From assembly GCF_001644645.1 (NCBI RefSeq), contig NZ_CP011390.1, positions 2,910,001-2,974,000 of the forward strand: 64,000 nucleotides of DNA. Direction: 5' to 3'. The position numbers and the translations under genes were made by a program. The DNA comes from Flavisolibacter tropicus. GTDB taxonomy: Bacteria; Bacteroidota; Bacteroidia; Chitinophagales; Chitinophagaceae. Below the pieces are notes generated by a model. That model ran no database searches. It had not been told where the DNA came from and saw only the letters and a list, made by a program, of their open reading frames with translations. Shown here one piece after another: positions 12,062-62,071 of this stretch. The number at the start of each line of letters is the position of its first letter. The first letter of the stretch is position 1.

Positions 12062-12118
12062 TCGACTGCCACAACCGTGGACTGTCGACTGTCGCCTGAG
12101 GACTCACTCACCACTCTC
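12062..12118. repeat. Heptad-periodic intergenic repeat, GTCGACT/CACTCAC themes
   Basis: Six heptamers in register from 12077: GTGGACT, GTCGACT, GTCGCCT, GAGGACT, CACTCAC, CACTCTC. Two more units (TCGACTG, CCACAAC) precede them with a single-base slip. The array runs up to the stop codon of kbl. The sequence drifts from a GTCGACT theme to a CACTCAC theme without losing register. Confidence 0.65.
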
Positions 12119-13305
12119 TACTTAATTACGCCCAGCTCCTTACCAATCTTGGTAAAGGCAGTGATCGCTTTATCCAGGTGATGTTGGTCATGACCAGCGC
12201 TTATCTGTACACGTATACGCGCCTGACCTTTTGGCACCACTGGGAAGAAGAATCCAATCACATAGATATTTTCTTCCAGCAGCTTAGCCGCAAAGTTGGC
12301 CGCCAGTACCGCATCGTACAACATGATGGGAACAATTGGATGTTCGCCCGGCTTGATATCAAAACCAGCCTCTGTCATTTTAGTACGGAAGTACTTTGTA
12401 TTATTCTCCAGCTTATCGCGCAGCTCCGTTGTTTCGCTCAGCATATCCAACACCGCGATGGAAGCACCTGTGATTGATGGAGCCAGTGTATTAGAGAATA
12501 AATACGGACGGCTTTTTTGACGCAGCATATCGATGATCTCTTTACGACCAGATGTAAAACCACCCGAAGCACCGCCTAGTGCCTTACCTAAGGTACCAGT
12601 AATGATGTCAATACGACCCATTACGCCTTTATGCTCGTGTGTACCTCTACCGGTTTTACCCATAAAGCCAGAGGCATGGCTTTCATCTACCATTACAATA
12701 GCATCGTATTTATCGGCCAGATCGCAGATCACGTCTAGTTGGGCAATCGTACCATCCATGCTAAAAACGCCATCAGTAACGATTACACGGCTACGGGCAC
12801 CTGCAGCTTCTTTCAGCTTTGCTTCCAAGTCTTCCATATTGTTGTGCTCATAGCGGTAGCGTTGGGCCTTACACAAACGCACACCATCAATAATAGAAGC
12901 GTGGTTCAGGGCATCAGAGATAATAGCATCCTGCTCGTTGAACAAAGGCTCAAACACACCCCCATTGGCGTCAAACGCTGCTACATATAAAATGGTATCT
13001 TCTGTACCTAAGAAAGTGGCCAGCTTTTGCTCCAGTTCTTTATGAATATCTTGAGTACCGCAGATAAAGCGTACAGAGCTCATCCCATATCCATGGCTAT
13101 CCAGGTATTTATGTGCTCCCGCTAACGTTTTAGGATGAGAGGATAAACCTAAATAGTTGTTGGCGCAAAAGTTCAATACAGTTTTCCCATTAACGGTAAT
13201 CTCAGCTCCCTGCGGAGAGGTAATGATCCGCTCCTGTTTATACAAACCCGCGCTTTTGATCTCTTCAACTTCCTGGCGGATCCGGTCTACAAATTTTTGA
13301 TTCAT
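12118..13305 (-). CDS. kbl: Glycine C-acetyltransferase (2-amino-3-ketobutyrate CoA ligase)
   Basis: A 395-residue PLP enzyme of the alpha-oxoamine synthase family, cleaving 2-amino-3-ketobutyrate with CoA to glycine and acetyl-CoA in threonine degradation. The sequence follows Kbl closely along its whole length: [13 protein letters not shown] near residue 45, [33 protein letters not shown], and the PLP lysine K241 in [13 protein letters not shown]. The SRPYLFSN and GQARIRVQ blocks also match Kbl better than serine palmitoyltransferase or BioF, the main alternatives in Bacteroidota. Threonine dehydrogenase (tdh) is not adjacent. The gene has its own promoter-like -7 site and a terminator, so it is probably monocistronic. 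Confidence 0.95.
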
Positions 13306-13323
13306 ATAACTGCTTTAGTGGCG

Positions 13324-13331
13324 CAAAGATA
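13324..13331 (-). promoter_or_regulatory. -7 element of the kbl promoter
   Basis: The minus strand reads TATCTTTG, an exact TAnnTTTG match, 18 nt before the kbl start codon. A TTTA sits 17 nt upstream as a possible imperfect -33 element. Confidence 0.45.
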
Positions 13332-13651
13332 AGGGTGGCGCACAGAGCTAAAGAGGGATTTCAAGATTTTAGGTGGCAGGCTTCTGGTTACAACCTTCCG
13401 TTCTCAACCAGACTTCTATTCTTCATGTCGCTCGCTGCCAGGCGTAATTCGTTTCAGCATCTGCTTTCCCCTTCAGGAGTTTATTGTGTAGCTTTATGAT
13501 TCTTCACTTTGGATTGATTCTTAGGTAATTACATTACGTTTTTTCTACATGATTTATGGATGCTGGTTGGGGCAGTATAGGAGGATGGTAGGAGGAGTAG
13601 TGAATGTGGAAGGCAGGTAGAGGGCTTTTTCTGTGCAGTTGGTACGGACTT

Positions 13652-13720
13652 ACCTACAGAAGAGGTACAGAAGAGGTACAGACTAGGTACAGGAGAGGTA
13701 CAAGAGACCTACAGACTAGG
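13652..13720. repeat. Degenerate 11-bp tandem repeat with GGTAC core
   Basis: Six units of exactly 11 nt follow one another: ACCTACAGAAG, AGGTACAGAAG, AGGTACAGACT, AGGTACAGGAG, AGGTACAAGAG, ACCTACAGACT. The unit is about one turn of B-DNA, so the GGTAC cores would lie on one face of the helix. It lies in an 870-nt gene-free region (13306-14178) that also holds the three arrays listed next. A related 11-bp array occurs at 61652. Confidence 0.7.
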
Positions 13721-13748
13721 GAGGGGCAGCGTGGCAGAAGCCGGGATC

Positions 13749-13806
13749 GTGAATGGTCAATGGTGAGTGGTGAATAGAGTGAAACGTCAAACGTGAGACG
13801 TGAAAG
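13749..13806. repeat. Heptad-periodic repeat, paired GTGAATG and GTGAAAC blocks
   Basis: Four heptamers GTGAATG, GTCAATG, GTGAGTG, GTGAATA, then a 2-nt spacer, then GTGAAAC, GTCAAAC, GTGAGAC, GTGAAAG. The two blocks show the same order of variation in the first five bases (GTGAA, GTCAA, GTGAG, GTGAA) but differ in the last two. That looks like a copied 28-bp phrase with systematic replacement. Confidence 0.72.
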
Positions 13807-13839
13807 GGATCCCTACAGTACGGGAATCACTCACGTTCC

Positions 13840-13874
13840 AATCCTGATAATATTATAATAAATCCTGATAATAT
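13840..13874. repeat. 14-bp direct repeat at 21-nt spacing
   Basis: AATCCTGATAATAT occurs at 13840 and again at 13861, exactly three heptads apart. It sits between the two heptad arrays of this gene-free region. Confidence 0.5.
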
Positions 13875-13973
13875 GTGGTCACTTAGTGAGGAGTTGCAGA
13901 GGACATCCTCCTCCTTTACAACTCCTACCGTCCTTCCATACTACTTCATTAAACCTTCACTCTTAAGGCTCTA

Positions 13974-14057
13974 ACAACTCACCACTCACCATTGACTCAA
14001 TGACTTGCTGACTTCTTCCTACTGTGGACCGTGGTCTGTCGACTATGGACCACTACT
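13974..14057. repeat. Heptad-periodic repeat, 12 units in register
   Basis: Twelve consecutive 7-nt units from ACAACTC, ACCACTC, ACCATTG, ACTCAAT, through GACTTGC, TGACTTC, TTCCTAC to TGTGGAC, CGTGGTC, TGTCGAC, TATGGAC, CACTACT. The theme changes midway while the 7-nt phase holds. A possible weak promoter (-7-like TACCTTCG at 14150) follows before the next gene. Confidence 0.65.
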
Positions 14058-14178
14058 CATCTGTTAGTCACATATTATATTATTATACAATTCATCCATC
14101 TTTTTCGCAATTCACACTTTTTTTAGAATACCTGTAACATAGACCTATCTACCTTCGTCTAACCATTAAACAAACCAC

Positions 14179-14397
14179 ATGAGGAAGGCATTACCAAACC
14201 GATTACCGCTGTTGCTGCTTGTCAGCTTGGGTCTGCTGTCCGCCACCCTCTTCATCTCATCAAGACCTAGTGATACTAACTGCATCAATACTGTTAAGTG
14301 CACAAAAAAGATTGAAAAACAAACGATTAAGGATGGAGGAGAGCTTTTATGGGAGTCTCTTAGCCGCCAGTTTGTTGCTTCAATCGGGCCACAATAA
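14179..14397 (+). CDS. Small exported or membrane protein of unknown function
   Basis: A 72-residue ORF with a strong N-terminal hydrophobic segment (LPLLLLVSLGLLSATLFI, residues ~9-26). A short soluble part follows with two cysteines (DTNCINTVKC) and a C-terminus DGGELLWESLSRQFVASI. Short proteins with a GGELxWExLSxxF tail seem familiar from Chitinophagaceae genomes, which favours a real gene, but I cannot name the family. A -7-like TACCTTCG lies 22 nt upstream. It precedes the sigma-factor operon by 77 nt and may be part of it or independent. Confidence 0.55.
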   Translation: MRKALPNRLPLLLLVSLGLLSATLFISSRPSDTNCINTVKCTKKIEKQTIKDGGELLWESLSRQFVASIGPQ

Positions 14398-14474
14398 AAA
14401 AAGTTTTTATTTATTGTAACATCTTAGTGCTTCAGACGTATTAGAGTATAGATAGGCACACACCACACTGTTTT

Positions 14475-14960
14475 ATGACCGAGAAAGAATATAATGAATG
14501 TGTTACAACGCACGCCGACCATGTGTACCGGTTCATTTTAAAGAACCTGCGCCACGAGGAGGATGCGCGTGACATTGTACAAACGGCTTTTGAAAAATTA
14601 TGGCGAAATAGAGCGGAAGTAGAAAGGGAAAAAAGCAAGTCTTACTTATTTACTATTGCGTACAACAGCATGATTGACCACCTGCGGAAGGTAAAACGTA
14701 TTTACCTGAAGGAGGAGTTTACCGACGAAACCCGTGTGGTGAACAAACCCATGCACAACGCCAAAGCGGTACTGGAAGAAGCCCTTGGTAGACTTAGCGA
14801 GACCCAGCGTTCGCTGGTGATGCTAAAAGACTATGAGGGTTACAGTTATGAGGAGATTGGACAAATTACCGGATTAAACAGCAGCCAGGTAAAAGTATAT
14901 TTACACCGTGCCCGTCTGCAATTAAAAGAATACTTAGTTAAAGTAGAAAATGTCATCTAA
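14475..14960 (+). CDS. ECF-type RNA polymerase sigma factor
   Basis: A 161-residue sigma-70 family protein with only regions 2 and 4, the ECF layout. Region 2 spans residues ~10-75 with the DARDIVQTAFEKLW core helix and ...IAYNSMIDHLRK. Region 4 spans ~98-150 with LVMLKDYEGYSYEEIGQITG and the recognition helix SSQVKVYLHRARLQL. It directs polymerase to a small regulon after an envelope signal. Its last 11 nt overlap the start of the next gene, which encodes a membrane protein with anti-sigma features. The two, with the outer-membrane barrel gene after them, form one operon, so self-activation is likely. No promoter match was found for the autoregulated site. Confidence 0.92.
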   Translation: MTEKEYNECVTTHADHVYRFILKNLRHEEDARDIVQTAFEKLWRNRAEVEREKSKSYLFTIAYNSMIDHLRKVKRIYLKEEFTDETRVVNKPMHNAKAVLEEALGRLSETQRSLVMLKDYEGYSYEEIGQITGLNSSQVKVYLHRARLQLKEYLVKVENVI

Positions 14961-16047
14961 CGAATTACATATAAGCCGTGCAAACTACGAAGCATACTTT
15001 TTAATGTATGTTGATGGTGAGTTAACCCCTGCACAATGTGATGCGGTAGAAGCTTTTGCCGCCCTTCATCCCGATTTGCAGGAAGAACTGGATCTGCTGC
15101 TGACCACTCGTCTGGATGCAGAAACCATTTCTTTTGACAAGAGCTCTTTGATGGCCGACAGCATGAAGCAGAATGTAATTGACGAATCGCTGCTGCTATA
15201 TATCGATAATGAACTGAAGGGGGAGGAAAAGAAAAAAATGGAAGAACAGTTAGCTGCTGATGCTAACTACCAATACCAACATAACCTGCTATTACAAACG
15301 AAATTGCCGGCCGAAGAAATCAGCTATCCTAATAAGGCTGAGTTGTACCGGAAGTCAGAAGGCAAAGTGCGCCCCATTATTTGGTACCGCGCTGCTGCGG
15401 CTGCTTTTGTATTGATGGCATCTGGTTATATTTGGTATATGAACCAAAATGCGGTTCCTAATGGCGGTTCTTTTGCCCAAGAGCATGGTAAGCAAACTAC
15501 ACCTGCCACTCCATATACGAACAATACAAACCTTGCTAAAGTGCCAGCCACTACACAAGGTACGGAAGCTCCTACTGAAAAAGATCATATTACTAATACT
15601 GTGGAAAGCGTAAAAGCTACAGATAATACTATTGCATCCATAGCGCAAGTTACTCCAAGAACATCTACACAGACAGCTGCTGATAACCGTACAAGTGTAA
15701 CCGTTAGCGACAATACAGCAAACACTACCGTTAACGATGTGGCTGTAGTAACTCAACCTGTTTCGACCATTGCAAAGAATACAGATGCTGCTATCCAACA
15801 ACAAAATATTAACACTGACGCTGTAACAACCACACAGCCTACTGCGTACAATAAGTATACAAAAGAGGTTACTGGTGATGAATCCGGACTTCAGACAGTA
15901 GCTCTAGAAACAGAAAACAATAAGCGCGGCTCTGTAAAAGGTTTCTTACGCAAAGCCTCCCGCTTTATTGAGCGCCGCACAGGAGTAGCCACCACCAACC
16001 AAAATGATGAATTACTGATTGGTGCGGTAGCGATCAAATTAAAATAA
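14950..16047 (+). CDS. Membrane-anchored anti-sigma factor with two N-terminal repeats
   Basis: A 365-residue protein. The cytoplasmic N-terminus carries two similar ~45-residue helical units: NYEAYFLMYVDGELT...LHPDLQEELDLL at ~8-45, and DESLLLYIDNELKGEEKKKMEEQLAADANYQ at ~75-110. Both follow the xxYxDxEL pattern of anti-sigma (ASD/zinc-finger-like) domains but lack the HxxxCxxC zinc motif. One transmembrane helix lies at ~148-164 (AAAAAFVLMASGYIWYM). The rest is a long Thr/Ala/Asn-rich low-complexity periplasmic region. It overlaps the sigma gene by 11 nt, as expected for a co-translated partner. The doubled recognition unit could be a duplicated sigma-binding site. Confidence 0.8.
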   Translation: MSSNELHISRANYEAYFLMYVDGELTPAQCDAVEAFAALHPDLQEELDLLLTTRLDAETISFDKSSLMADSMKQNVIDESLLLYIDNELKGEEKKKMEEQLAADANYQYQHNLLLQTKLPAEEISYPNKAELYRKSEGKVRPIIWYRAAAAAFVLMASGYIWYMNQNAVPNGGSFAQEHGKQTTPATPYTNNTNLAKVPATTQGTEAPTEKDHITNTVESVKATDNTIASIAQVTPRTSTQTAADNRTSVTVSDNTANTTVNDVAVVTQPVSTIAKNTDAAIQQQNINTDAVTTTQPTAYNKYTKEVTGDESGLQTVALETENNKRGSVKGFLRKASRFIERRTGVATTNQNDELLIGAVAIKLK

Positions 16048-16068
16048 CTACTTTCAAACTTTTTACAG

Positions 16069-16902
16069 ATGAAACAAGCTTTACTTGCAATTTTTGCAAC
16101 TGGCATAGCTATGTGTACCTATGCGCAAAACGATTCTACCCAGAAAGAAAAAGTCGATACCATTAAGATCGGCGGAATGGTGATCATTAAAAAAAGCGAT
16201 GGCAAAGAACATTCCAGCGACAAAACCATCACCATCTCTAACCACCATCATTCAAGAAAGAACGAAAACATTAGCACCAACTGGGGTATTATTGATATTG
16301 GATTTGCCAACTACAACGATAAGACCAACTATGCCCAAGCGCAAGCTGATGGCTTTGTAGCACCCGGTGTAGGAGATGACCAGTTTGACCTACGTACAGG
16401 CAAATCGGTTAACGTGAACCTTTGGTTCTTTATGCAGCGCTTTAACCTTGTAAAGCACGTAGTGAACCTGAAATATGGACTGGGACTGGAACTGAACAAC
16501 TACCATTTTGACGATCAGCGTGTGTACTTCCAGGAAAACCCTACCAAGGTAGTGCTAGACGACAGATGGAAGGATGCTAACAAAAACAAACTGGCCGTTG
16601 ACTATCTAACCGTGCCCCTGATGTTAAACTTCAACTTCACACCTGGCCGTGAAAGCGGGTTTGGATTTAGCGCAGGTATTAGCGCAGGCTACCGCTACTC
16701 TGCCCGCCAGAAGATCAAGATCGATGGTGAAAGAATTAAAAACCACGACGACTTTAACCTGGAACCCTGGAAGCTTTCCTACATTGGCGAGGTAAACCTG
16801 GGCCCGGTTAAACTTTACGGTTCTTATGCACTGGATAATATGTGGGAGAAAGGTTTGAACCAACGACCTTACAACTTTGGTCTGCGCTTTAGCCGCTTCT
16901 AG
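16069..16902 (+). CDS. Outer-membrane beta-barrel protein of the sigma operon
   Basis: A 277-residue exported protein with signal peptide ATGIAMCTYAQ. After a ~45-residue Lys/His-rich linker the mature part shows the alternating amphipathic strands and terminal aromatic residue (LRFSRF) of an outer-membrane barrel. It resembles PorT/OmpA-like 8-stranded barrels often encoded behind ECF sigma/anti-sigma pairs in Bacteroidota. It begins 21 nt after the anti-sigma stop codon and is followed by a strong terminator, so it closes the operon. It may be a target of the sigma factor or a sensor of outer-membrane state. The precise role is unknown. Confidence 0.78.
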   Translation: MKQALLAIFATGIAMCTYAQNDSTQKEKVDTIKIGGMVIIKKSDGKEHSSDKTITISNHHHSRKNENISTNWGIIDIGFANYNDKTNYAQAQADGFVAPGVGDDQFDLRTGKSVNVNLWFFMQRFNLVKHVVNLKYGLGLELNNYHFDDQRVYFQENPTKVVLDDRWKDANKNKLAVDYLTVPLMLNFNFTPGRESGFGFSAGISAGYRYSARQKIKIDGERIKNHDDFNLEPWKLSYIGEVNLGPVKLYGSYALDNMWEKGLNQRPYNFGLRFSRF

Positions 16903-16925
16903 TATTAATAAATATTTTTGAAGAG

Positions 16926-16960
16926 AACCTTGCTGAATTTATAATTCAGCAAGGTTTTTG
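16926..16960 (+). terminator. Intrinsic terminator of the sigma-factor operon
   Basis: A perfect 14-bp stem, AACCTTGCTGAATT with AATTCAGCAAGGTT, a 3-nt loop and a following T run, 24 nt after the barrel gene's stop codon. Confidence 0.88.
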
Positions 16961-17138
16961 CTTTTAGGAGGTTGCCGAGAAAAGCGTTTTTGTGAATTGT
17001 AGTTGTGCGTTTTGTTCAGTGCGGTTGGGCTTATTACTTATCACGATCCCATATTTTAGTTATAACTTTTCGGCCGCATACTAAGAAATAGTTATTGTCC
17101 GTTACACAAAAAGACACCGCTAAACCGCAATTCAATTT

Positions 17139-17714
17139 ATGAAAACAATCTTGTTGCTATCCAGTTTCATTGCAATAGGAGGTTTGATGCTAACCAGCAA
17201 GAGTGAAAATGAAAACGTGAGGTTCACTTCCTATAAAGTGAGTAAAGCCCGTAAAACATCTGAGAAACCCATTGCGCCCATGCGCATCGTCATTGACAAG
17301 TCGGACTATGAGCTGAGTGTTTATGACGCCAAGGGCTGGTACGCCACCTACCCGGTGGTATTTGGAGCCGATCCCATGCAGGATAAAAAAATGGAGGGCG
17401 ACCGCTATACGCCAGAAGGGGAGTTCAAGATCCTTTCCAAACGTCCGCATGAAAAGTGGAGTCGCTTTATAATGCTGGATTATCCTACGCAGGAGTCATT
17501 GGTCAAGTTCAATCAACGCAAACAACGAGGTGAAATACCAAAGAACGCTACGCCCGGCGGCGGTGTGGGCATCCATGGTGTATGGCCGCATGAAGATTTT
17601 GTGATTGACCGCTATAAAAACTGGACACTAGGCTGTATATCGCTGAAGAATGCCGATGTGCAGGAACTATATGGCTATATACCTATCGGCACGCCAGTAA
17701 CCATCAAGAAATAA
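17139..17714 (+). CDS. L,D-transpeptidase (YkuD domain)
   Basis: A 191-residue exported enzyme with an N-terminal signal segment (ILLLSSFIAIGGLML). The YkuD catalytic domain runs from about residue 48 (MRIVIDKSDYELSVYD) to the end. The motif is intact: H146 in GIHGVWP and the nucleophile C166 in WTLGCISL. Such enzymes form 3-3 peptidoglycan cross-links or attach proteins to peptidoglycan in the periplasm. They resist most beta-lactams except carbapenems. The neighbourhood gives no specific partner; the ~235-nt upstream gap has no clear promoter match. A terminator follows. Confidence 0.92.
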   Translation: MKTILLLSSFIAIGGLMLTSKSENENVRFTSYKVSKARKTSEKPIAPMRIVIDKSDYELSVYDAKGWYATYPVVFGADPMQDKKMEGDRYTPEGEFKILSKRPHEKWSRFIMLDYPTQESLVKFNQRKQRGEIPKNATPGGGVGIHGVWPHEDFVIDRYKNWTLGCISLKNADVQELYGYIPIGTPVTIKK

Positions 17715-17747
17715 TCACTGTTACTTTACCGTTCGACACATACAAAG

Positions 17748-17777
17748 CAGCCTTCCTCTAATGGGAAGGCTGTTTGC
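17748..17777 (+). terminator. Intrinsic terminator after the L,D-transpeptidase
   Basis: CAGCCTTCC pairs with GGAAGGCTG around a 7-nt loop, followed by TTTG. It lies 33 nt after the stop codon. The ~520 nt that follow up to acs hold no credible gene but several repeats. Confidence 0.75.
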
Positions 17778-17798
17778 TATTACAGATGGCACAGCTAC

Positions 17799-17840
17799 AC
17801 GCTGTACGCTATACGCTGCACGCAGAGCGCGCTTCGCGCT
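17799..17840. repeat. Heptad-periodic repeat, ACGCTGT theme
   Basis: Six heptamers in register: ACGCTGT, ACGCTAT, ACGCTGC, ACGCAGA, GCGCGCT, TCGCGCT. The same ACGCTGT unit opens a second array at 17979, 180 nt downstream. Confidence 0.65.
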
Positions 17841-17849
17841 GTTTTGTTT

Positions 17850-17900
17850 CACGCGGAGGCGCAGGGAACGCAGAGAGAAAGGGTTTCGCACAGAGGAAAG
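17850..17900. repeat. CGCAGAG-type dispersed intergenic repeat
   Basis: The stretch contains CACGCGGAGGCGCAGGGAA followed by CGCAGAGAGAAA. Very similar sequence occurs between genes in many Bacteroidota genomes as far as I recall. A related phrase is at 18082. The frame that stays open across this repeat looks non-coding. Confidence 0.4.
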
Positions 17901-17978
17901 GAGAAAAGGAGGAACCGCGGATTGTTGGATTAGTGGAATTCAGACTTCGCTGATGATTGGAGAGCAACTATTCGCTTC

Positions 17979-18034
17979 ACGCTGTACACTGCAAGCAATG
18001 AACAGTGAAACGTGAAACGTCAAACGTGAAAAAG
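17979..18034. repeat. Heptad-periodic repeat, ACGCTGT passing into GAAACGT
   Basis: Eight units in strict register: ACGCTGT, ACACTGC, AAGCAAT, GAACAGT, GAAACGT, GAAACGT, CAAACGT, GAAAAAG. The first half belongs to the 17799 theme and the second half to the 13749/34576 theme, joined without a phase break. Confidence 0.72.
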
Positions 18035-18045
18035 GCCTGCACACG

Positions 18046-18065
18046 CCCCCGCCCCTAAAGGGGAG
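18046..18065 (+). repeat. Single CCCCTAAAGGGG element terminus
   Basis: CCCCC, G, then CCCCTAAAGGGGAG. It matches the inverted ends of the 7461-7654 element. No partner end is seen within 200 nt. Confidence 0.6.
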
Positions 18066-18081
18066 CAGCCACCCTCAGGAA

Positions 18082-18113
18082 TCTCCCGCAGATAGCGCAG
18101 ATGAACGCAGAAG
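18082..18113. repeat. Short CGCAGAT-type repeat
   Basis: TCTCCCGCAGATAGCGCAG, then ATGAACGCAGAAG, with three CGCAGA units. A recurrent intergenic phrase of this kind is known to me from Bacteroidota, but only one copy is clear here. Confidence 0.35.
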
Positions 18114-18183
18114 TGATCGCCTCAAAGAAAGCTAAGAGATGAAAGAGTATAAGAAGGAAAAGTGAATGGATATAAAGTGCGAA

Positions 18184-18209
18184 AGCACTCCTAAATTGGA
18201 GTGCTATTC
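18184..18209. terminator. Hairpin downstream of acs
   Basis: AGCACTCC pairs with GGAGTGCT around TAAATT. It is ~90 nt beyond the acs stop codon on the minus strand; the T tract is weak on either side. Confidence 0.5.
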
Positions 18210-18293
18210 TTATGTAATACTATTTGGTCGTCTGGCGTTGTGCGGTGGTGAAGTCCGCCCTTCGGGAGGATTTAGGAGGGCCGTCTCCCTCTC

Positions 18294-20219
18294 CTACATC
18301 TTCCCTCCTGCAATCTCATTCACTACATTCGGATCCAGCAACGTAGACGTATCACCAAAGTTCTGTGTTTCACCTTCAGCAATCTTGCGTAGAATACGAC
18401 GCATAATCTTACCACTTCTTGTTTTAGGAAGACCATTCACAAACTGAATTTTATCCGGCTTGGCTATAGGACCAATGATACGGGAAACAGTTTGAAGGAT
18501 ATTTTGACGGGTTAATGACTCATCACCATGAAGGTTCTGGCAAACAACATAGGCATAAATACCTTGTCCCTTGATATCGTGCGGGTAACCTACTACGGCA
18601 CTTTCTACCACATCCGCATGCATATTGATCGCGTTCTCTACTTCGGCTGTGCCTATACGGTGGCCACTCACATTCAGCACATCGTCCACACGGCCAGTAA
18701 TACGGTAGTTACCCTCTTCATCGCGCAGGGCACCATCACCCGTAAAGTAGAGGTTCTCATAAGTAGAGAAATACGTCTTCCGGCAACGCTCATGATCGCC
18801 CCAGGTAGTTCTTAGAATTCCTGGCCAAGGCGCTTTCATACAAAGGTTACCAGCGGCGGGGTTTCCTTCCACCTCTTTACCATTTTCATCTACCAATATA
18901 GGTTGCACGCCCGGTAGCGGCAAGGTAGCATGTGCAGGCTTAGCCGGTGTTACACCTGCCAGATTGGAAATAAGAATACCACCTGTTTCTGTCTGCCACC
19001 ACGTATCTACAATTGGGCATTTCTTTTTACCTATATGCTCATCGTACCAATGCCAGGCCTCTTCATTAATGGGCTCACCTACTGTACCTAACACTTTTAA
19101 TGAGCTTAGGTCTTTTCCTTCAAGAGGTTTTAAGCCAAAGCCCATGAGTGAGCGAATAGCTGTAGGCGCTGTATATAAAATATTTACTTTGTACTTGTCT
19201 ACTATTTCCCAAAAGCGACCAGCATCTGGCCAAGTAGGCACCCCTTCAAAAATGATACTGGTAGCGCCAGCAGCCAGTGGGCCGTAAACAATATAGCTAT
19301 GACCAGTGATCCAGCCGATATCAGCCGTACAGAAATGAATATCACCAGGATTATACTGGAACACATTCACAAACGTATACCCTGTCCACACCATGTAGCC
19401 ACCGCAGGTATGCACTACCCCTTTAGGCTTACCGGTGCTTCCGGAAGTATATAAGATGAATAAAGGATCCTCAGCATCCATTTCTTCTGCCGGGAAGGAT
19501 ACGATATTGTTTTTTTCTACTTGCGACTCTGCGTGATCCATTTCATCTTCCCACCACAAGTCTCTTCCTTTCAACATACTCACCGGAGTGCGAGTGCGTG
19601 TGTATACAATAACTTTCTTAACGGTTTTATTACCTATTAATGCATCATCTATGACGCTCTTTAATGGGATCACTTTTTCACCACGGTAAGCACCATCTTG
19701 CGTAATAATAAACTCTGCTTGCGCATCTTCTAACCGGTCGGCAATACTCTGCGCTGAAAAACCACCAAAGATTACACTGTGTATAGCACCAATACGGGCA
19801 CAGCCTAAAACAGCATACACCAATTCAGGCACCATACCCATATAGATACAAACCCTGTCTCCTTTCTTTACGCCATGGTTCTTTAGCATTTGGGCTACTT
19901 GGCATATGCGTTTGTGCAAGCGGTTATAGGTTACCACACGTACTCTATCTTCCGGGTTATTGGGTTCAAAAATAAAGGCCGGCTTGTCGCCCAATGTTTC
20001 CAGGTGGCGATCAACGCAGTTCTCCGTGATATTCAGTTTTCCGCCAGCGAACCACTTTACATTTGGCTCTTTAAAGTTCCACTCCAGTGTTTTATCCCAT
20101 TTTTTTCTCCATAGGAAATGTGAGGCTACTTCCCCCCAATAGGTTTCTGGTTGTTCAACACTTTGCTTCCAGGCTTTCTGATAGGCATCTAAACTTTTGA
20201 TCTGATAGGGATATGACAT
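18294..20219 (-). CDS. acs: Acetyl-CoA synthetase (AMP-forming)
   Basis: A 641-residue adenylate-forming enzyme making acetyl-CoA from acetate, ATP and CoA. The ATP loop is YTSGSTGKPKG, the YWTADIGW-like block is present as FCTADIGWITGHSYIVYGPL, and a DTWWQTETGG core follows. The acyl-adenylation lysine is K604 in TRSGKIMRR, the site usually controlled by acetylation. Length and motif order match Acs rather than propionyl-CoA synthetase or the shorter acyl-CoA ligases. No deacetylase or acetate permease gene is adjacent. Acetate activation would feed lipid synthesis and the glyoxylate or TCA cycle. A TATTTTTA sequence ~20 nt upstream is a weak promoter candidate. Confidence 0.96.
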   Translation of the reverse strand: MSYPYQIKSLDAYQKAWKQSVEQPETYWGEVASHFLWRKKWDKTLEWNFKEPNVKWFAGGKLNITENCVDRHLETLGDKPAFIFEPNNPEDRVRVVTYNRLHKRICQVAQMLKNHGVKKGDRVCIYMGMVPELVYAVLGCARIGAIHSVIFGGFSAQSIADRLEDAQAEFIITQDGAYRGEKVIPLKSVIDDALIGNKTVKKVIVYTRTRTPVSMLKGRDLWWEDEMDHAESQVEKNNIVSFPAEEMDAEDPLFILYTSGSTGKPKGVVHTCGGYMVWTGYTFVNVFQYNPGDIHFCTADIGWITGHSYIVYGPLAAGATSIIFEGVPTWPDAGRFWEIVDKYKVNILYTAPTAIRSLMGFGLKPLEGKDLSSLKVLGTVGEPINEEAWHWYDEHIGKKKCPIVDTWWQTETGGILISNLAGVTPAKPAHATLPLPGVQPILVDENGKEVEGNPAAGNLCMKAPWPGILRTTWGDHERCRKTYFSTYENLYFTGDGALRDEEGNYRITGRVDDVLNVSGHRIGTAEVENAINMHADVVESAVVGYPHDIKGQGIYAYVVCQNLHGDESLTRQNILQTVSRIIGPIAKPDKIQFVNGLPKTRSGKIMRRILRKIAEGETQNFGDTSTLLDPNVVNEIAGGKM

Positions 20220-32695: not shown

Positions 32696-34543
32696 ATGTG
32701 TGGCATAACCGGTATTCTCCAATATAGGTCGCCTCTTTCAGAGCAGGCCTTACAGCAAGGCACAGCCGCTATACAGCATAGAGGACCGGATGAGCGCCCC
32801 TCAATCTGGACTAATTCTGAACGCTCTGTTGGACTTGGCCATTGCCGGTTGTCCATTTTAGATCTAAGCAGCCGTGCCAACCAGCCTCTAGCGTATTTAA
32901 ATCGCTATCGTATAGTACATAATGGTGAACTCTATAATTACCTGGAGCTTCGCCGCCAGCTTGAGCAAAGAGGCTACCAATTTCTTACTACGTCCGATAC
33001 AGAAGTTATCGTAGCTGCTTTTGATGCTTATCAAACCGATTGCCTACAACAGTTTGAAGGCATGTTTGCTTTTGCTATCTGGGATGAAAAGGAACAAATA
33101 CTCTTTGCTGCCCGCGACCGTTTTGGAGAAAAGCCTTTCTTCTTTCATAACAGCAACGAACAGCTATTATTTGCTTCTGAACTAAAAGCTTTATGGCGCA
33201 TGGGCGCTCCCAAAGAGGTGAACCCTGCGATGTTGTATAACTTCCTGACCATTGATTATACCAGCAACCCCTCCAATCCGCAGGAAACCTTTTATAAGGA
33301 CATCTTTAAACTGCCAGCTGCATCCTATCTACTGCTTACGCTTCCAACAAGGGAGTTAGAGATACAACAGTACTGGCAAGTGTTTCCAGAAAGCAATCAA
33401 AATATTTCGGAGCAACAGGCCATTGAGCAGTTTCAGCATTTACTGACAGATAGTATTCAAAAACGTTTGCGCAGTGATGTGAGTATCGGTACAAGCCTTA
33501 GTGGAGGTTTGGACAGCTCAACCATTATTGCTCTTTGTCATCAAATTACCAATCAACACTATTCGCATCAGGCATTCACAGCATCGTTTCCAGGCTATGT
33601 AAACGACGAAACGACCAACGCTACATTGGTTGCCCAACGTTTCGGCTTACAGCAGCATTTAGTTACTATTTCGCCCGACAGCATTCCTACCCTCATGGAA
33701 ACCGTTGCCCGCCACCAAGAAGAACCGATCCTGTTTAGTAATGTATTAGCACAGTATAGGGTATATGAAACAGCCCTGCAACAGGGAATTACTGTATTAC
33801 TGGATGGTCAAGGAGCCGACGAAATTCTGGCAGGGTATCACAAATACTACCCTTGGTATTGGCAGGAACTCTATAGGCAAGGCAAACTAAAAAGCAGCGG
33901 TGAATTGCAAGCAGCGCGGGGCCTAGGCATAACCCAAACCTTTGGCATCAAACGTCAAATAGCAGCTCGTCTTCCTCATTTTGCAGCAGCCTTACAAGAA
34001 AGAGCCAAAGCAAAAAAAGCCAACCGCTTTATAGATCTAGAGCCTTCTTTCGCCTGGTCTAACAAACAACAGCTTTATTATGCGCTACCCTCTACTATGG
34101 ATCTGCAGGGCGCCCTCTATTTCAACACCTTTGTCTATGGCCTAGAAGAACTCTTACGTTATGCAGATCGCAACAGCATGGCACATGGCATAGAGGTACG
34201 TCTCCCCTTCTTAAGTCATCCGTTAGTAGAATTTCTCTTTACGCTCCCTTCGCATTTTAAGATCAAAGAGGGCTGGACAAAATGGATACTTCGAAAAGCA
34301 ACCACATCGCTTCTTCCTTCCGAAATTGCCTGGCGCAAGGACAAAGTAGGCTTTGATACACCACAAAAACAATGGATGCAACAGCCTTCTGTAATAGAGG
34401 CTATCCATGAAGGGAAAAAGAAGCTGGTAGAACAGGGTGTTTTACAGCCACAAGTATTACATCAAAAAATAAAGCCGCACGATGTACATGCGGCTGATAA
34501 CAAAGACTGGAAGTATTGGTCGGCTTCGTTTCTATTTGATTAA
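32696..34543 (+). CDS. asnB: Asparagine synthase (glutamine-hydrolysing)
   Basis: A 615-residue enzyme making asparagine from aspartate, ATP and glutamine. The N-terminal glutaminase domain begins at the catalytic C2 (MCGITGILQY) with RGPDERPS and HNGELYN. The C-terminal synthetase domain has the pyrophosphate-binding SGGLDSS at about residue 269-275 and LDGQGADEILAGYHKYY. Its length (615) is nearer to the longer bacterial class-B enzymes than to E. coli AsnB (554). Related amidotransferases act in secondary metabolism, but no such cluster is present. Heptad repeats and a 184-nt gap follow it. Confidence 0.92.
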   Translation: MCGITGILQYRSPLSEQALQQGTAAIQHRGPDERPSIWTNSERSVGLGHCRLSILDLSSRANQPLAYLNRYRIVHNGELYNYLELRRQLEQRGYQFLTTSDTEVIVAAFDAYQTDCLQQFEGMFAFAIWDEKEQILFAARDRFGEKPFFFHNSNEQLLFASELKALWRMGAPKEVNPAMLYNFLTIDYTSNPSNPQETFYKDIFKLPAASYLLLTLPTRELEIQQYWQVFPESNQNISEQQAIEQFQHLLTDSIQKRLRSDVSIGTSLSGGLDSSTIIALCHQITNQHYSHQAFTASFPGYVNDETTNATLVAQRFGLQQHLVTISPDSIPTLMETVARHQEEPILFSNVLAQYRVYETALQQGITVLLDGQGADEILAGYHKYYPWYWQELYRQGKLKSSGELQAARGLGITQTFGIKRQIAARLPHFAAALQERAKAKKANRFIDLEPSFAWSNKQQLYYALPSTMDLQGALYFNTFVYGLEELLRYADRNSMAHGIEVRLPFLSHPLVEFLFTLPSHFKIKEGWTKWILRKATTSLLPSEIAWRKDKVGFDTPQKQWMQQPSVIEAIHEGKKKLVEQGVLQPQVLHQKIKPHDVHAADNKDWKYWSASFLFD

Positions 34544-34575
34544 AAAAGCAATCACTTAAGTTTTACAAACAGATC

Positions 34576-34617
34576 GTGAAACGTGAGACGTCAAACGCGA
34601 AAGGGTTTCCGACAGAA
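34576..34617. repeat. Heptad-periodic repeat, GTGAAAC theme
   Basis: Six heptamers in register: GTGAAAC, GTGAGAC, GTCAAAC, GCGAAAG, GGTTTCC, GACAGAA. The first three match the 13749 block. Its TCGTGAAACGTGA end is the exact inverse complement of TCACGTTTCACGA at 34681-34693. Confidence 0.7.
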
Positions 34618-34669
34618 CAATTTTATTCAATAACTAAAGCCCCGTTAATAAGCCAGCCCTGTGCGGTGG

Positions 34670-34725
34670 CATTTCACGATTCACGTTTCACGATTTTGGA
34701 CCCTCCGCATTTGGCGGACCGTGGA
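34670..34725. repeat. Heptad-periodic repeat, CGATTCA/CCGTGGA themes
   Basis: Eight heptamers in register: CATTTCA, CGATTCA, CGTTTCA, CGATTTT, GGACCCT, CCGCATT, TGGCGGA, CCGTGGA. The first half is the inverted GTGAAAC theme and the second the GTGGACC theme. It ends at the stop codon of the next gene. Confidence 0.65.
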
Positions 34726-38497: not shown

Positions 38498-39262
38498 ATG
38501 GATGCAAAACTGAAAGCTTTCCTGGATCGTAAAGTTGAAGAATACAATCAGCCTTCATTTATCCCTGCTGACCCAATCTCTATTCCTCATCGCTTTACAA
38601 AACTACAGGATAAAGAGATCTCTGGTTTTTTTGCTGCCATCTTTGCCTGGGGTAACCGCCGCATCATTATCAATAAAACTACCGAGCTCATGCAATTGAT
38701 GGATGATGCGCCTTATCAGTTCATCCTTCATCATACCGATAATGATCTAAAGAAACTATTAGCTTTCAAGCATCGCACGTTTAATACCACAGACCTACTT
38801 TATTGCATATACTTCTTTCACCATCATTATACTACCAATACATCCCTGGAACAAGCGTTCTTTCCCAACAAAAGCATTAATAGTGTAGAAGCGGGGCTCA
38901 ATCATTTTCACCACTACTTCTTTTCCTTACCCGATGCACCAGAGCGTACTCAAAAACATATTGCGGCACCTTTTAAGAAATCAACCTGCAAACGACTGAA
39001 TATGTACCTGCGGTGGATGGTGCGTAAAGACAATAAGGGAGTAGACTTTGGTATCTGGAACCATATCTCCCCCAAAGAGCTGATCTGCCCTATAGATGTA
39101 CACGTAGCCCGCGTGGCCCGCAAACTGGCCTTAATTCAACGTCCTGTTACAGATTGGCAAACAGCCTTAGAGCTTACCAATCACCTCCGCCAAATGGATC
39201 CCCACGATCCTGCTAAATACGACTTCGCTCTTTTTGGCTTAGGCGTAACCGAGAAGTTTTAA
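38498..39262 (+). CDS. TIGR02757 family protein
   Basis: A 254-residue cytoplasmic protein. It matches the TIGR02757 pattern: an N-terminal LxFLxxKVEEYN segment, DPISIPHRF, EISGFFAAIFAWGNRRIIINKT, KHRTFNTTDLLYC, and a C-terminal CPIDVHVARVARKLALI with PHDPAKYDFALFGLGV. This family is widespread in Bacteroidota and of unknown function; the last part suggests a helix-hairpin-helix DNA glycosylase relative. The VDVH-like HVARVARKL stretch fits that fold. It starts 21 nt after the preceding gene and may share its transcript. Confidence 0.88.
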   Translation: MDAKLKAFLDRKVEEYNQPSFIPADPISIPHRFTKLQDKEISGFFAAIFAWGNRRIIINKTTELMQLMDDAPYQFILHHTDNDLKKLLAFKHRTFNTTDLLYCIYFFHHHYTTNTSLEQAFFPNKSINSVEAGLNHFHHYFFSLPDAPERTQKHIAAPFKKSTCKRLNMYLRWMVRKDNKGVDFGIWNHISPKELICPIDVHVARVARKLALIQRPVTDWQTALELTNHLRQMDPHDPAKYDFALFGLGVTEKF

Positions 39263-39267
39263 TAACC

Positions 39268-39345
39268 AATAATGAGTAATGAATAATGAGTTGCGCTTTT
39301 AATATTAAAACGCCTACACTCCTTACTCCTTACTCATCACTCATT
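39268..39345. repeat. Heptad-periodic repeat, AATAATG and ACTCCTT themes
   Basis: Units AATAATG, AGTAATG, AATAATG, AGTTGCG begin 5 nt after the TIGR02757 stop codon. After 22 nt comes ACTCCTT, ACTCCTT, ACTCATC, ACTCATT, which reads as the inverse theme (AATGAGT). Together they could fold back on each other. Confidence 0.65.
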
Positions 39346-49786: not shown

Positions 49787-49863
49787 AGTTGACGGAGGGC
49801 AGTTGATAGTTGGCAGTGGACTGCCCTTTATTGCCGACTTTCAACTACCAACTATCATCTGAT
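49787..49863. repeat. Heptad-periodic repeat, 11 units, inverted halves
   Basis: Eleven units in register: AGTTGAC, GGAGGGC, AGTTGAT, AGTTGGC, AGTGGAC, TGCCCTT, TATTGCC, GACTTTC, AACTACC, AACTATC, ATCTGAT. The first half reads as AGTTGAT and the second as its inverse ATCAACT-like theme, so a fold-back structure is possible. Confidence 0.72.
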
Positions 49864-54835: not shown

Positions 54836-54854
54836 TAGTTGATTCATAGATTAG

Positions 54855-56667: not shown

Positions 56668-56698
56668 TTTGTATTTAGTTAACGCTGTACTATGTTTG
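56668..56698 (+). promoter_or_regulatory. Bacteroidota promoter of metF
   Basis: TTTG at 56668, an ideal 19-nt spacer and TATGTTTG, an exact TAnnTTTG match. The resulting leader before metF is about 100 nt. Confidence 0.7.
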
Positions 56699-57765: not shown

Positions 57766-57770
57766 TGAGT

Positions 57771-57851
57771 AGTTTACGAGTTCACTTGTTTACAAGTTTA
57801 CAGTTCATGGATAGAAACAAGTGAACTTGTGAACTCTGGAACTTGTGAACT
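57771..57851. repeat. Octad-periodic repeat (period 8), inverted halves
   Basis: Units AGTTTACG, AGTTCACT, TGTTTACA, AGTTTACA begin at 57771, and AGTGAACT, TGTGAACT, CTGGAACT, TGTGAACT begin at 57820. The two parts are inverse themes (AGTTCACT against AGTGAACT), so the array can form a long imperfect hairpin. It lies between metF and the following terminator. Confidence 0.65.
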
Positions 57852-57858
57852 ATAAATA

Positions 57859-57902
57859 ACCAAAGAAAAAGGAGAGCCGTTGCTCTCCTTTTTCTTTGGT
57901 TA
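57859..57902. terminator. Bidirectional terminator between metF and the foldase operon
   Basis: A 20-bp stem with the core GGAGAGC-CGTT-GCTCTCC extended by AACCAAAGAAAAA and its complement. It can end both the rightward metF and the leftward foldase gene, whose stop codon overlaps it. Confidence 0.88.
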
Positions 57903-59825: not shown

Positions 59826-59838
59826 AGCAGTAATCGGT

Positions 59839-61263
59839 TTAGGACTTGTTTTTTTGACGGACCGCTAATATTTCATCAACCTGTTCTTCGGTTACTTTTT
59901 TAGCGATTATTCGTTTGTCTTTGTCTAACAAATACAAGGTAGGAAAACTCTGAACATCAAACAATTGGGAATACCCAGGAACACCAGCATCAATACGTGC
60001 TTTTTCATCGGCCTTGGAATAGTATACATGCACCCAATCATTAAGTTTGTGATCATGGATCATATTCATCCAGTCTTTCTTAGAGCCTTCTGTTTCCTTA
60101 GCTAATCCAAACATTTGTACACCCTGTGCCTTCCATTTACTGTGAAGCAGGCTATCCAGCTTTGGCACTAATTCCTTACAATGCCCACAGGTAGGATCCC
60201 AAATTACTAATAATGTATAAGGAGAATTTACGCTATACAGGTTTATCTTTTTTCCACTGGTATCAGGAAGTTCCACATCAGCAGCTGGAGTGCCCATAAT
60301 ATTTGCCATCAGGCTATACGCACGGTCGGTGATCACTTTCTTTCCTTGCTCATTCAGCCAGGGATAGGTTTTCTGGGAAAAGTATTTTTCATACAGGTGT
60401 ACAAATACCTTGTCTTCCCACATATACTTCTGGTTCAGATAGCGGTTGACATATTTCACCAGCAGAAAGCGTTGCATGTCTTCACTAATGCTGGCATAAC
60501 CCAGCATCCAATCCAGTTCCTTGATCACAGAGTCAGCATCCGGATATACCAATTGCTCAAAATAGCGATCTAACCGGGCTTCAAAAAATGGCGTACGTGC
60601 CAGGCGATCATCCCAAAAGTTTACACCATCCCAGTAATGTGCCTTGAAATAGTGGTAGCCAAATAGTGAATCAGTCTTGGCTTCCGGGGCATTCTTGGGT
60701 ACCTCTGGATCTCTCATGGCCTTTAGCAAAACAGTCAGTAAACTGTTAGGATTTTTGGTCATGATATTCACACGGTAATCGTGAATCTGTTTATTAACCG
60801 CTATAATCTTTTGAGTAAGTGCTACTGAGTCTTGCGGCTGTGCCGTGCGCTGTTTGTATAAAGCATCCAGCGTTTTGCCATTGGAAGCCATATACTGCTG
60901 ATACGCCCTGAACTGGGCATTATCGGGCGAGTTTTGGAATGTAATGGTTTTAGCAATGGTAGCGGTATCGGCTATCACGCTAAACCTCTGATTCTTGTCT
61001 ACCAATATCTCAAAGTTCTGTGAGCGGTCGGGGTAGCCAATCAGGTAAATACCTCCACCCAGCTTTTTAGAACCTTTAAAGACACCTTCGCTTTTCTCAT
61101 TCAGCTTTACGGAGTCGATAATGGGTAGCGTTTTACCAAAGTAATGACCTAAATAAATGTATTGATTCTTAAAGGGCTTCAGCGTTACCTTAATCTCGTA
61201 AGCGTTCTGAGCACTGGCCGTCAGGCCCACAGCAAGGGCAAGGAGTGTGTTTACTATTCGCAT
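59839..61263 (-). CDS. Thioredoxin-like protein with N-terminal DUF4369-type domain
   Basis: A 474-residue exported protein: signal peptide (LLALAVGLTASAQ), an N-terminal beta-rich domain (NAYEIKVTLKPFKNQYIYLGHYFGK..., ~18-110) followed by helical linker, and a C-terminal thioredoxin fold with LLVIWDPTCGHCKELVPKLDSL. The active pair is CGHC and is followed by FPTLYLLDKDKRIIA. Proteins of this layout in Bacteroidota are periplasmic disulfide reductases. It lies immediately upstream of the parvulin gene, so a joint role in envelope protein folding is likely. Confidence 0.83.
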   Translation of the reverse strand: MRIVNTLLALAVGLTASAQNAYEIKVTLKPFKNQYIYLGHYFGKTLPIIDSVKLNEKSEGVFKGSKKLGGGIYLIGYPDRSQNFEILVDKNQRFSVIADTATIAKTITFQNSPDNAQFRAYQQYMASNGKTLDALYKQRTAQPQDSVALTQKIIAVNKQIHDYRVNIMTKNPNSLLTVLLKAMRDPEVPKNAPEAKTDSLFGYHYFKAHYWDGVNFWDDRLARTPFFEARLDRYFEQLVYPDADSVIKELDWMLGYASISEDMQRFLLVKYVNRYLNQKYMWEDKVFVHLYEKYFSQKTYPWLNEQGKKVITDRAYSLMANIMGTPAADVELPDTSGKKINLYSVNSPYTLLVIWDPTCGHCKELVPKLDSLLHSKWKAQGVQMFGLAKETEGSKKDWMNMIHDHKLNDWVHVYYSKADEKARIDAGVPGYSQLFDVQSFPTLYLLDKDKRIIAKKVTEEQVDEILAVRQKNKS

Positions 61264-61385
61264 TTCGGTAGCAATGTGCCATAAAAATAGAGAAACAATA
61301 CAGAACCAATTGATTTTGTCAGGTTAAAGAGATGCAAAAGGGAGATAAGAGGAGAAAAGAGAGGGAAAGAGGAAAAGAGGAAAGG

Positions 61386-61525
61386 AATAATGAGCAATGA
61401 ACAAGGAAGGAAAAGCTGCGAGCTATGAGCTATGAGAAGAAGTCCACGGTTGACAGATGACAGTCCACAGAAGGAAAGAAAATGTTCAATACCCAATAAT
61501 CAATGTTCAAGGGACAAGGAAGAAG
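61386..61525. repeat. Heptad-periodic repeat, 20 units in unbroken register
   Basis: The longest array: AATAATG, AGCAATG, AACAAGG, AAGGAAA, AGCTGCG, AGCTATG, AGCTATG, AGAAGAA, GTCCACG, GTTGACA, GATGACA, GTCCACA, GAAGGAA, AGAAAAT, GTTCAAT, ACCCAAT, AATCAAT, GTTCAAG, GGACAAG, GAAGAAG. All 140 nt keep the 7-nt phase while the motif theme changes at least three times. It lies in an 816-nt gene-free region (61264-62079); the purine-rich part before it (61320-61385) has no strict register. Confidence 0.75.
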
Positions 61526-61575
61526 AGAACTTGCTCTGCGGGGAGGGTTTTCGTATCTTTAGGCTCTTCTCTTTT

Positions 61576-61597
61576 AGAGCCTATTCGGCTCTTTTTA
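61576..61597 (+). terminator. Orphan terminator-like hairpin
   Basis: AGAGCC-TATTC-GGCTCT followed by TTTTTATTA. No gene ends just before it, so it may mark a lost gene or be part of the repeat region. Confidence 0.5.
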
Positions 61598-61651
61598 TTA
61601 CACATTTCCTTATTATATCTGATTGGATTTCTACCGGCTTTGGGGTGGCGG

Positions 61652-61801
61652 GATACGGGTGAGGGATCGGCCGGGGATGGGGTGAGATACGGGTGAGGTA
61701 CGGGTGAACCCACAGGACAGGTACAGGCTTATATGAAGATACTAGGGCGTTACCATTAGGTTACTATGGCATTACTGAGGCTTTGCTATGAAGTAGCCAT
61801 G
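61652..61801. repeat. Two 11-bp-period tandem arrays
   Basis: First, GATACGGGTGA at 61652 and 61686 and GGTACGGGTGA at 61697, with a more degenerate stretch between. Second, five 11-mers from 61747: GCGTTACCATT, AGGTTACTATG, GCATTACTGAG, GCTTTGCTATG, AAGTAGCCATG. The GGTAC/GTTAC core and the 11-nt period match the 13652 array. Confidence 0.62.
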
Positions 61802-61940
61802 AAGGAAGAACGGTAGAAGGGGAAAATATTAGGGGCGTTTATCATGTAACGGATTTGGGGCTACCTATAAAAGTATGCTGCCTGTAGGGGGGCTTTTTAT
61901 TTATCAGCGTTTTTGGTCTTCTGCCTTTGAGTGCAGGCTA

Positions 61941-61968
61941 CTCACCATTGACCATTCACGAGCTAAGC
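61941..61968. repeat. Heptad-periodic repeat, CTCACCA theme
   Basis: CTCACCA, TTGACCA, TTCACGA, GCTAAGC in register. On the other strand this reads GTGAATG-GTCAATG-GTGAGTA, the same theme as 13749. Confidence 0.62.
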
Positions 61969-61969
61969 C

Positions 61970-61990
61970 CTCCCCTTTAGGGGCCGGGGG
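61970..61990 (-). repeat. Single CCCCTAAAGGGG element terminus (inverted)
   Basis: Read on the minus strand it is CCCCCGG, then CCCCTAAAGGGGAG. Fourth copy in the window of the same end as 7461-7654 and 18046. Confidence 0.6.
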
Positions 61991-62050
61991 CATGTGCTTG
62001 CTTTCCTATCACTCGTTATAAACCTCTTAAACTGCAAGGCTTCAACGGGA

Positions 62051-62071
62051 AACTACCAACTATCGCCTACT
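62051..62071. repeat. Short heptad repeat before rlmD
   Basis: AACTACC, AACTATC, GCCTACT, the theme of the 49787 array, ending 8 nt before the rlmD start codon. Confidence 0.45.

Follow-up and report, generated by a model that had tools for sequence, protein, structure and literature searches.

Polar heptad arrays at gene boundaries in the Flavisolibacter tropicus chromosome and in other bacteria

Heptad periodicity in the window and its genome

The window is a 64,000-nt stretch of the Flavisolibacter tropicus chromosome (G000:C1:2910001-2974000, where G000 is a single contig of 5,940,863 bp); its intergenic gaps carry tandem arrays of degenerate heptamers, among them arrays of GTGANNN units (Table 1). 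Genes were called everywhere by a simple longest open reading frame (ORF) rule with a minimum of 100 aa, and dinucleotide shuffles served as the control for identity at a given lag. In the 34 gaps of the window lag-7 identity is 0.2924 as compared with 0.2651 after shuffling (z 6.4), and the harmonics are also raised at lag 14 (z 4.3) and lag 21 (z 5.0); 13 segments have a lag-7 score of at least 11, against 0.03 in shuffles. The genome was sampled as 40 evenly placed 20-kb stretches (800 kb; 407 gaps, 119.7 kb), and there lag-7 z reaches 15.9 in gaps, with harmonics at 14 and 21; scored segments of period 7 number 106 where shuffles give 1.4. Periods 8 and 11 are likewise in excess (26 vs 2.6 and 24 vs 1.6 segments), and periods 9, 10, 12 and 13 yield 3, 3, 2 and 0 segments. 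Called ORFs of the sample hold only 20 period-7 segments in 0.67 Mb, more than five times the amount of gap DNA (0.12 Mb) in which the 106 were found. Heptad periodicity in intergenic DNA is real and far above chance.

A first-pass annotation made from the letters of the window had proposed a genome-wide system resembling the short tandemly repeated repetitive (STRR) sequences of cyanobacteria, detectable as a lag-7 excess over dinucleotide-shuffled DNA; both the excess and the system are borne out by the figures above. Ten of its 14 listed sites are clear (1730, 12062, 13749, 13974, 17799, 17979, 34576, 34670, 39268 and 61386), with a score of at least 11 within -25 to +60 nt; 4592 and 49787 are weak (lag-7 score only 9), and 61941 and 62051 have no segment scoring 8 or more, 61941 still being a recognisable GTGA-family word. 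The two four-unit blocks at 13749 carry the same order of units, exactly as it described. Its range of 3 to 20 units was too wide at the upper end, as the longest segments in the window reach about 8 units; its placement of all arrays between genes holds for the listed sites of the window, and the genome sample has 20 segments in called ORFs as well. Periods 8 and 11, inverted pairing, dispersed families and position beside gene ends are features beyond that annotation.

Among other features of the window, stretches of period 8 or 11 were found by Tandem Repeats Finder (TRF) at 13655-13720, 57771-57851 and 61680-61707; the pair at 34575-34691 (L026) folds with a z of -4.0, and comparison of positions 11000-19000 with Rfam gave seven matches, every one below the gathering score.

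Table 1. Arrays and related elements in the window (positions in the window; strand where assigned)
Feature	Position	Strand	Basis
Heptad array, AAATTCC theme, convergent gap	1744..1779		Lag-7 score 11; TRF 1730-1762
Heptad array, GACTGTC theme passing to CTCACCA-like units	12074..12122		Lag-7 score 14
Block that the syntenic kbl/sigma-factor gap lacks in G014 and G004	13390..14130 (edges approximate)		Alignment; gap lengths
Dispersed "H core" with 11-nt array (TACAGAAGAGG)	13574..13709	+	Genomic matches; copies read
Two four-unit GTGA arrays, suffix TG then AC, like unit order	13746..13803	+	Lag-7 score 21; sequence
GTGA array facing the 13746 array (inward pair)	13971..13996	-	Lag-7 score 11
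Heptad array, GCTACAC theme	17794..17840		Lag-7 score 16
Heptad array, ACGCTGT-like units passing to GTGAAAC, phase kept	17973..18031	+	Lag-7 score 20
GTGA array, left arm, 32 nt past stop of gene ending at 34543	34575..34602	+	TRF; sequence; lag-7 score
Inverted GTGA array, right arm	34673..34695	-	TRF; sequence; lag-7 score
TAATGAG array, left arm, beginning 7 nt past stop at 39262	39270..39291	+	TRF; sequence
ACTCCTT/ACTCATC array, inverted partner of 39270 (by eye)	39318..39344	-	Lag-7 score 16; sequence
Weak GTTGACG/GTTGATA/GTTGGCA run, left arm	49787..49817	+	Sequence; gap lag-7 z 1.1, lag-14 z 3.8
Inverted partner (by eye) of 49787 run (CAACTACCAACTATC)	49837..49860	-	Lag-7 score 9 only
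8-nt array (AGTTTACA), left arm	57771..57802		TRF; gap lag-8 z 5.0
8-nt array (GTGAACTT), right arm	57821..57851	+	TRF; sequence
Heptad array, AGCTATG theme	61414..61436	+	Lag-7 score 12
11-nt array (GGGTGAGATAC)	61680..61707	+	TRF
Three-unit GTGA word	61941..61959	-	Sequence; lag-7 score below 8

Polarity, pairing and position beside stop codons

The arrays are oriented: followed along the strand with the GTGA core, which is sometimes GTCA, they begin on or close to the edge of a gene and run into the intergenic DNA. Position was counted in a 2.14-Mb set that includes the window, the array-rich picks G012, G013 and G020, and places with GTGA matches listed beforehand; it contains 74 GTGA arrays of at least three units, with four units in 33, three in 22 and five in nine, and 8 arrays in ORFs and 3 at edges were dropped from the position counts. 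Where a sense gene lies on the 5' side, 28 of 32 arrays overlap its stop or begin no more than 50 nt from it (4 overlapping, 13 starting 0-9 nt and 11 starting 10-49 nt after the stop); where an antisense gene lies on the 3' side, 5 of 36 overlap its stop or come within 50 nt of it. In a second set, from which 38 and 37 rows were dropped, the 79 sense-side arrays comprise 27 that overlap the stop and 23 that begin 0-9 nt past it, and on the antisense side 1 of 64 lies within 10 nt. Arrays containing N and duplicate sequences were left out. Part of this excess consists of arrays whose own TGA is the stop, as each sense frame of a GTGA array contains stops.

Arrays that share a gap face each other, an arrangement that allows a long, imperfect stem to form across the gap. 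The ratio of inward to outward pairs is 12:0 in the 2.14 Mb, 23:1 in a larger set, some of whose loci were chosen for their GTGA arrays, 26:0 in 120 cross-phylum stretches (all selected for GTGAATG arrays), and 21:0 at the listed positions; this polarity is independent of the ORF calls. Paired arms fold strongly, with z below -3 in 23 of 23. Arrays are also closer to the gene on their 5' side, whatever that gene's direction, in 27 of 31 cases among relatives and 21 of 28 in G000.

For heptads of all themes, starts no more than 10 nt from a 3' gene end are observed 31 times in relatives (12.7 expected), 11 times in G000 (4.5) and 67 times in the cross-phylum set (25.2), part of the excess being arrays that overlap the stop. 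The corresponding figures near 5' gene ends are 9 (7.9), 7 (3.8) and 29 (17.6); enrichment there is seen in the cross-phylum set and not in relatives. Of the antisense arrays within ORFs, 27 of 38 in the cross-phylum set and 12 of 15 in relatives are closer to the N-terminus (10 and 1 are closer to the C-terminus), and the N-terminal ones are read as over-extended ORF starts. A G-over-C polarity of non-GTGA arrays beside stops seemed significant, but is a trend only once stop-overlapping arrays are removed (11:4 and 11:3; p 0.19 and 0.26); far from stops the sign is opposite, significantly so in the cross-phylum set only (6:22). The 11-nt arrays show no polarity.

Relatives, orthologous gaps and dispersed copies

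Among 11 relatives sampled at 80-100 kb each, nine have 7 as their most frequent period once harmonics are set aside; in G005 it ties with period 11, and in G014 it is absent. The heptads themselves change from one species to the next, the period does not. A pattern search for three GTGANNN units followed by GTGA found arrays in 23 of 38 genomes and none in G014 or G017, and GTGANNNGTNANNNGTGA exceeds its reversed control in all eight genomes chosen for a closer look (ratios from 183:77 to 65:0, with 417:9 among them). Within an array, units tend to end in the same two bases, and this ending differs between species: in 173 arrays, partly pattern-selected, it is shared by 51% of neighbouring units (19% expected), and position 3, G or C, is alike in 69% of neighbours as compared with 72% expected from composition. 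In stretches not placed by pattern, GTCA is found inside arrays, in 36 of 109 interior vs 10 of 116 end units.

The convergent acs/ykuD gap is 579 bp long in G000 and 48-170 bp in relatives. In G015 and G006 each stop is followed after about 4 nt by a GTGA array, and by eye a T-tailed hairpin separates the two arrays; G009 follows the same plan with an AC suffix and decay. In all three genomes the distance from either stop to its array is 3-4 nt. Between G015 and G006 the right arm differs by a single heptad. No array is present in this gap in G005, G017 or G011, and in G005 and G017 the stop is at the corresponding position of the alignment. In G000 the kbl/sigma-factor gap measures 1169 bp, vs 339 and 375 bp in G014 and G004, and by alignment the two shorter gaps are without an array block of about 800 bp; a gain in G000 would be the simpler reading of the alignment, and alternatively the block may have been lost in both G014 and G004.

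Many of the arrays in G000 belong to mosaic repeats, dispersed in copies that keep a fixed order of units. A few "sentences", recurring in the same order at distant loci, account for many arrays: GTGAATG/GTGAGTG/GTCAGTG; GTGAAAC GTCAAAC GTGAGAC GTGAAAG; GAATATT GAACAAG GAACAAG GAATGAT GAAGGAA; ATTGAAC ATTGAGT ATTGAAA GTTGAGC ATTGAAC; the octamers GTTGACAG GTTAACAA GTTGATAA GTTGACAA; and 11-mers of TACAGAAGAGG. In the sample and window together, 114 of 442 gaps have a BLAST match in another gap, and dispersed repeat makes up 20.1 of 129.5 kb of gap DNA. The H core has at least 36 matches in G000, the window's own included (351-bp query round the 11-mer array; 40 of 196 candidates scored); it is 87-100% identical in the 30 loci read, which differ in their count of 11-mers and have mosaic flanks, and no copy was found in the 37 relatives searched. 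At L131, L138, L139, L143 and L147, all in G000, the H core precedes members of a multicopy gene family with a protein that starts MAKQVGPVFITGTIDGIIFYKLGDTYY. One apparent terminal repeat, such as a transposon with terminal inverted repeats would carry, turned out to be the upstream region of a multicopy gene family. Further recurrent intergenic words, CGCAGAG, CGCAAAG, GATTAGCTGATTAG and CCCCTAAAGGGGAG, occur in the window at 17840-17920 and 18060-18115 and in many other G000 gaps; they look like more families of the same mosaic. One gap at 5.15 Mb (L094:8785-9027) holds about 30 near-perfect copies of GTGAACTT, the octamer theme of window position 57821, an array far longer than the others of G000; L083 (G000:C1:3500001-3520000) is an unusually array-rich 20 kb, with array-filled gaps of several hundred bp to 1.8 kb.

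Among stretches that were positioned without regard to a pattern, GTGAAAC GTCAAAC GTGAGAC GTGAAA recurs in exactly this order at four loci of G000, one of them in the window, and at a single locus in each of G003 and G006. As an exact order recurs at several loci, the shared order is not the work of local slippage alone, and local slippage as sole source is ruled out for the many G000 arrays that are copies with fixed unit order. As to the upkeep by slippage suggested in the first-pass annotation, gain or loss of 7 nt is seen in the one-heptad difference between the G015 and G006 right arms.

A cross-phylum scan returned at least 120 GTGAATG stretches from many phyla. An exact GTGAATG array is present in 10 of 395 genomes of the phylum and the reversed control in 3; a universal GTGAATG vocabulary is rejected on these counts, and sequence sharing across phyla is weak evidence, while geometry at the cross-phylum loci stays informative. 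Near-perfect long GTGAATG arrays of about 19-25 units occur in unrelated bacteria such as Acinetobacter (L224), Mesorhizobium (L186) and Methylomicrobium (L228), among loci L181-L300.

Known heptad systems and possible origins of the arrays

Cyanobacterial STRR sequences are degenerate heptanucleotide tandems between genes, as are the arrays described here. Repetitive extragenic palindromes (REP), the bacterial interspersed mosaic elements (BIME) and miniature inverted-repeat transposable elements (MITE) are short dispersed intergenic palindromes, a form that the present elements share, although here the arms are heptad tandems; unlike REP with REP-associated tyrosine transposases (RAYT), array number does not follow the number of Y1 transposases (PF01797).

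Three papers describe parallels. Intergenic heptads of Xanthomonas and Nostoc (GGGAATC and GGGGA(C/T)T) have a four-unit mode and form convergent pairs in 70 and 75 cases; they lie in sense near or overlapping stops or in antisense close upstream of ORFs, and closer to the 5' ORF in either orientation (Rehm et al. 2015, PMC4692102). The present arrays agree with them in being mainly intergenic, in their four-unit mode, in their inward pairs and in the proximity of the sense strand to stops; they differ in that GTGANNN and the other units are without G-tracts for a three-tier quadruplex (four GGG runs in 0 of 74 GTGA arrays), in that the suffix varies by species, and in that G000 arrays are partly contained in dispersed mosaics. 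The same paper mentions STRR for Calothrix. Repeats of TAACTGA and other heptamers are described from Beggiatoaceae, cyanobacteria and five Bacteroidetes, with 7-nt indels between Cyanothece strains (MacGregor 2015, PMC4679880); these too are intergenic heptamers with 7-nt indels and with relatives' gaps that are free of them, unlike the present arrays in that the BOGUAY repeats lie mostly just upstream of start codons. Tandem TAACTGA was found in 0 of 427 loci and not in the window, with one free base allowed between units. Geobacter metallireducens carries four tandem octanucleotides or five heptads per site, with many opposite-strand pairs and 49 four-heptad elements (Aklujkar et al. 2009, PMC2700814), resembling the heptad and octad tandems and opposite-strand pairs seen here, with other units. 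The first-pass description of the system as apparently undescribed in Bacteroidota was therefore too strong: the geometry is known from Xanthomonas and Nostoc and heptamer repeats from five Bacteroidetes, and what is new here is the GTGANNN unit without G-runs, arrays of this kind having no description in the literature searched, with subscription journals mostly outside reach.

The arrays are tentatively considered, at somewhat less than an even chance, to be polar gene-boundary elements that form terminator or insulator hairpins and are renewed by 7-nt slippage; 7-nt gain and loss, polarity, pairing, proximity to stops and dispersal in G000 are observed directly, and from these we infer the function. 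Arrays would arise and be renewed by replication slippage in a 7-nt step, the inverted partner would be made by hairpin template switching, and the stems may serve as auxiliary terminators or insulators for both strands between neighbouring genes, with a purine-rich 5' arm and a pyrimidine-rich 3' arm. Such a role is suggested because array density in relatives is highest in convergent gaps (0.41 per kb, as compared with 0.21 in tandem and 0.14 in divergent gaps), because paired arms fold, and because, in Xac, transcripts begin or finish more often within heptad repeats able to form quadruplexes than within controls (PMC4692102). Several observations weigh against it: strong folding is expected of any inverted pair; many arrays are without a clear inverted partner (one above 10 shuffles exists for 16 of 118 in G000, 24 of 80 in relatives and 44 of 169 across phyla); the arms are not strictly complementary, left-arm GTCA pairing across the stem in 4 of 12 cases; and some paired arms carry unlike themes (L231, L272, L290). 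In addition, density in G000 follows the order convergent 0.36, divergent 0.27 and tandem 0.13 per kb; the 8-nt pair at 57771/57821 has a polarity opposite to the GTGA rule; and the Xac effect is one of quadruplex-capable vs mutated or short repeats.

An unlikely but substantial alternative is that the arrays are purely mutational and without function: slippage would favour 7-nt (then 8- and 11-nt) steps in unconstrained DNA, with position and polarity arising from strand-specific mutation beside genes. It accords with units that vary by species under a constant period, with the absence of arrays by pattern in G014 and G017, with 7-nt indels between orthologues here and between Cyanothece strains (PMC4679880), and with a polymerase-footprint idea quoted in PMC4692102. 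Simple slippage does not predict that four units outnumber three (33 vs 22), and the inward polarity regardless of gene direction and the retention of GTCA in the interior while the suffix is homogenised also speak against it.

A binding-site function, in which an oligomeric RNA- or DNA-binding factor would read about four GTSA cores at 7-nt spacing, is doubtful. The GTGA core is conserved relative to its reversed pattern over the eight chosen genomes, the four-unit mode suits such a factor, the exact unit order is common to G000, G003 and G006, and S1, Csp or Csr proteins have been proposed for TAACTGA (MacGregor 2015, PMC4679880); set against these are the many other heptamers of the same genomes and the lack of a candidate protein, none having been sought. 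The first-pass annotation had named a protein binding at 7-nt spacing, and since the heptamers differ between species a single fixed motif misfits, while a reader of the GTGA core or of the 7-nt geometry may fit.

Less probable again is a palindromic mobile element of REP or MITE type that inserts at gene ends, for which dispersed copies, empty syntenic gaps and the palindromic shape would speak. Y1 transposases (PF01797) number none in G008 (84% complete) and one weak match in G020, though both genomes are array-rich, while G014 and G017 have five and six matches yet no GTGA arrays; the acs/ykuD arms flank a terminator-like hairpin of a type also present in relatives, and no target-site duplication was seen, no systematic search having been made. 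Very improbable is an addition of heptads to 3' DNA ends at breaks in gaps, with the ends then joined as in fused telomeres: it would give inward pairs whichever way the genes run, but the acs/ykuD arrays lie at the outer edges with the terminator-like hairpin between them, and we know of no enzyme that adds heptads to 3' ends at breaks and joins them.

Two last ideas have next to no likelihood. Back-up stop codons, with TGA at 7-nt spacing closing three frames past the stop, would suit sense GTGA arrays that begin at the stop codon; arrays beside start codons run in the opposite direction, and GGGAATC, at the same position in Xanthomonas (PMC4692102), is stop-free in every frame (by hand), so that back-up stops are not the general reason. 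G-quadruplexes, proposed for the GGGAATC and GGGGA(C/T)T repeats (PMC4692102), whose geometry and four-unit mode the GTGA arrays share, are the least credible here and are refuted for GTGA arrays as far as three-G tracts go; as none of the 74 GTGANNN arrays has the needed G-runs, quadruplexes are not the general reason either.

Heptad repeats have been noticed piecemeal, as cyanobacterial STRR, in Xanthomonas and Nostoc, as TAACTGA and in Geobacter, with a separate explanation each. It is conceivable, if rather unlikely, that there is one class of gene-end element across many phyla, defined by geometry and not by sequence: about four C-poor heptads running from the edge of a gene into the gap, inward pairs and a lineage-specific unit, made and used by one shared process or factor responsive to 7-nt spacing and strand polarity, with quadruplexes, back-up stops and Y1 transposases not being the general reason. 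Since GTGANNN arrays have the geometry of Xanthomonas and Nostoc without the G-runs, the thing to explain is 7-nt spacing and polarity at gene boundaries; two testable questions follow, namely what effect the arrays have on read-through between genes, and what is the source of polar 7-nt steps.

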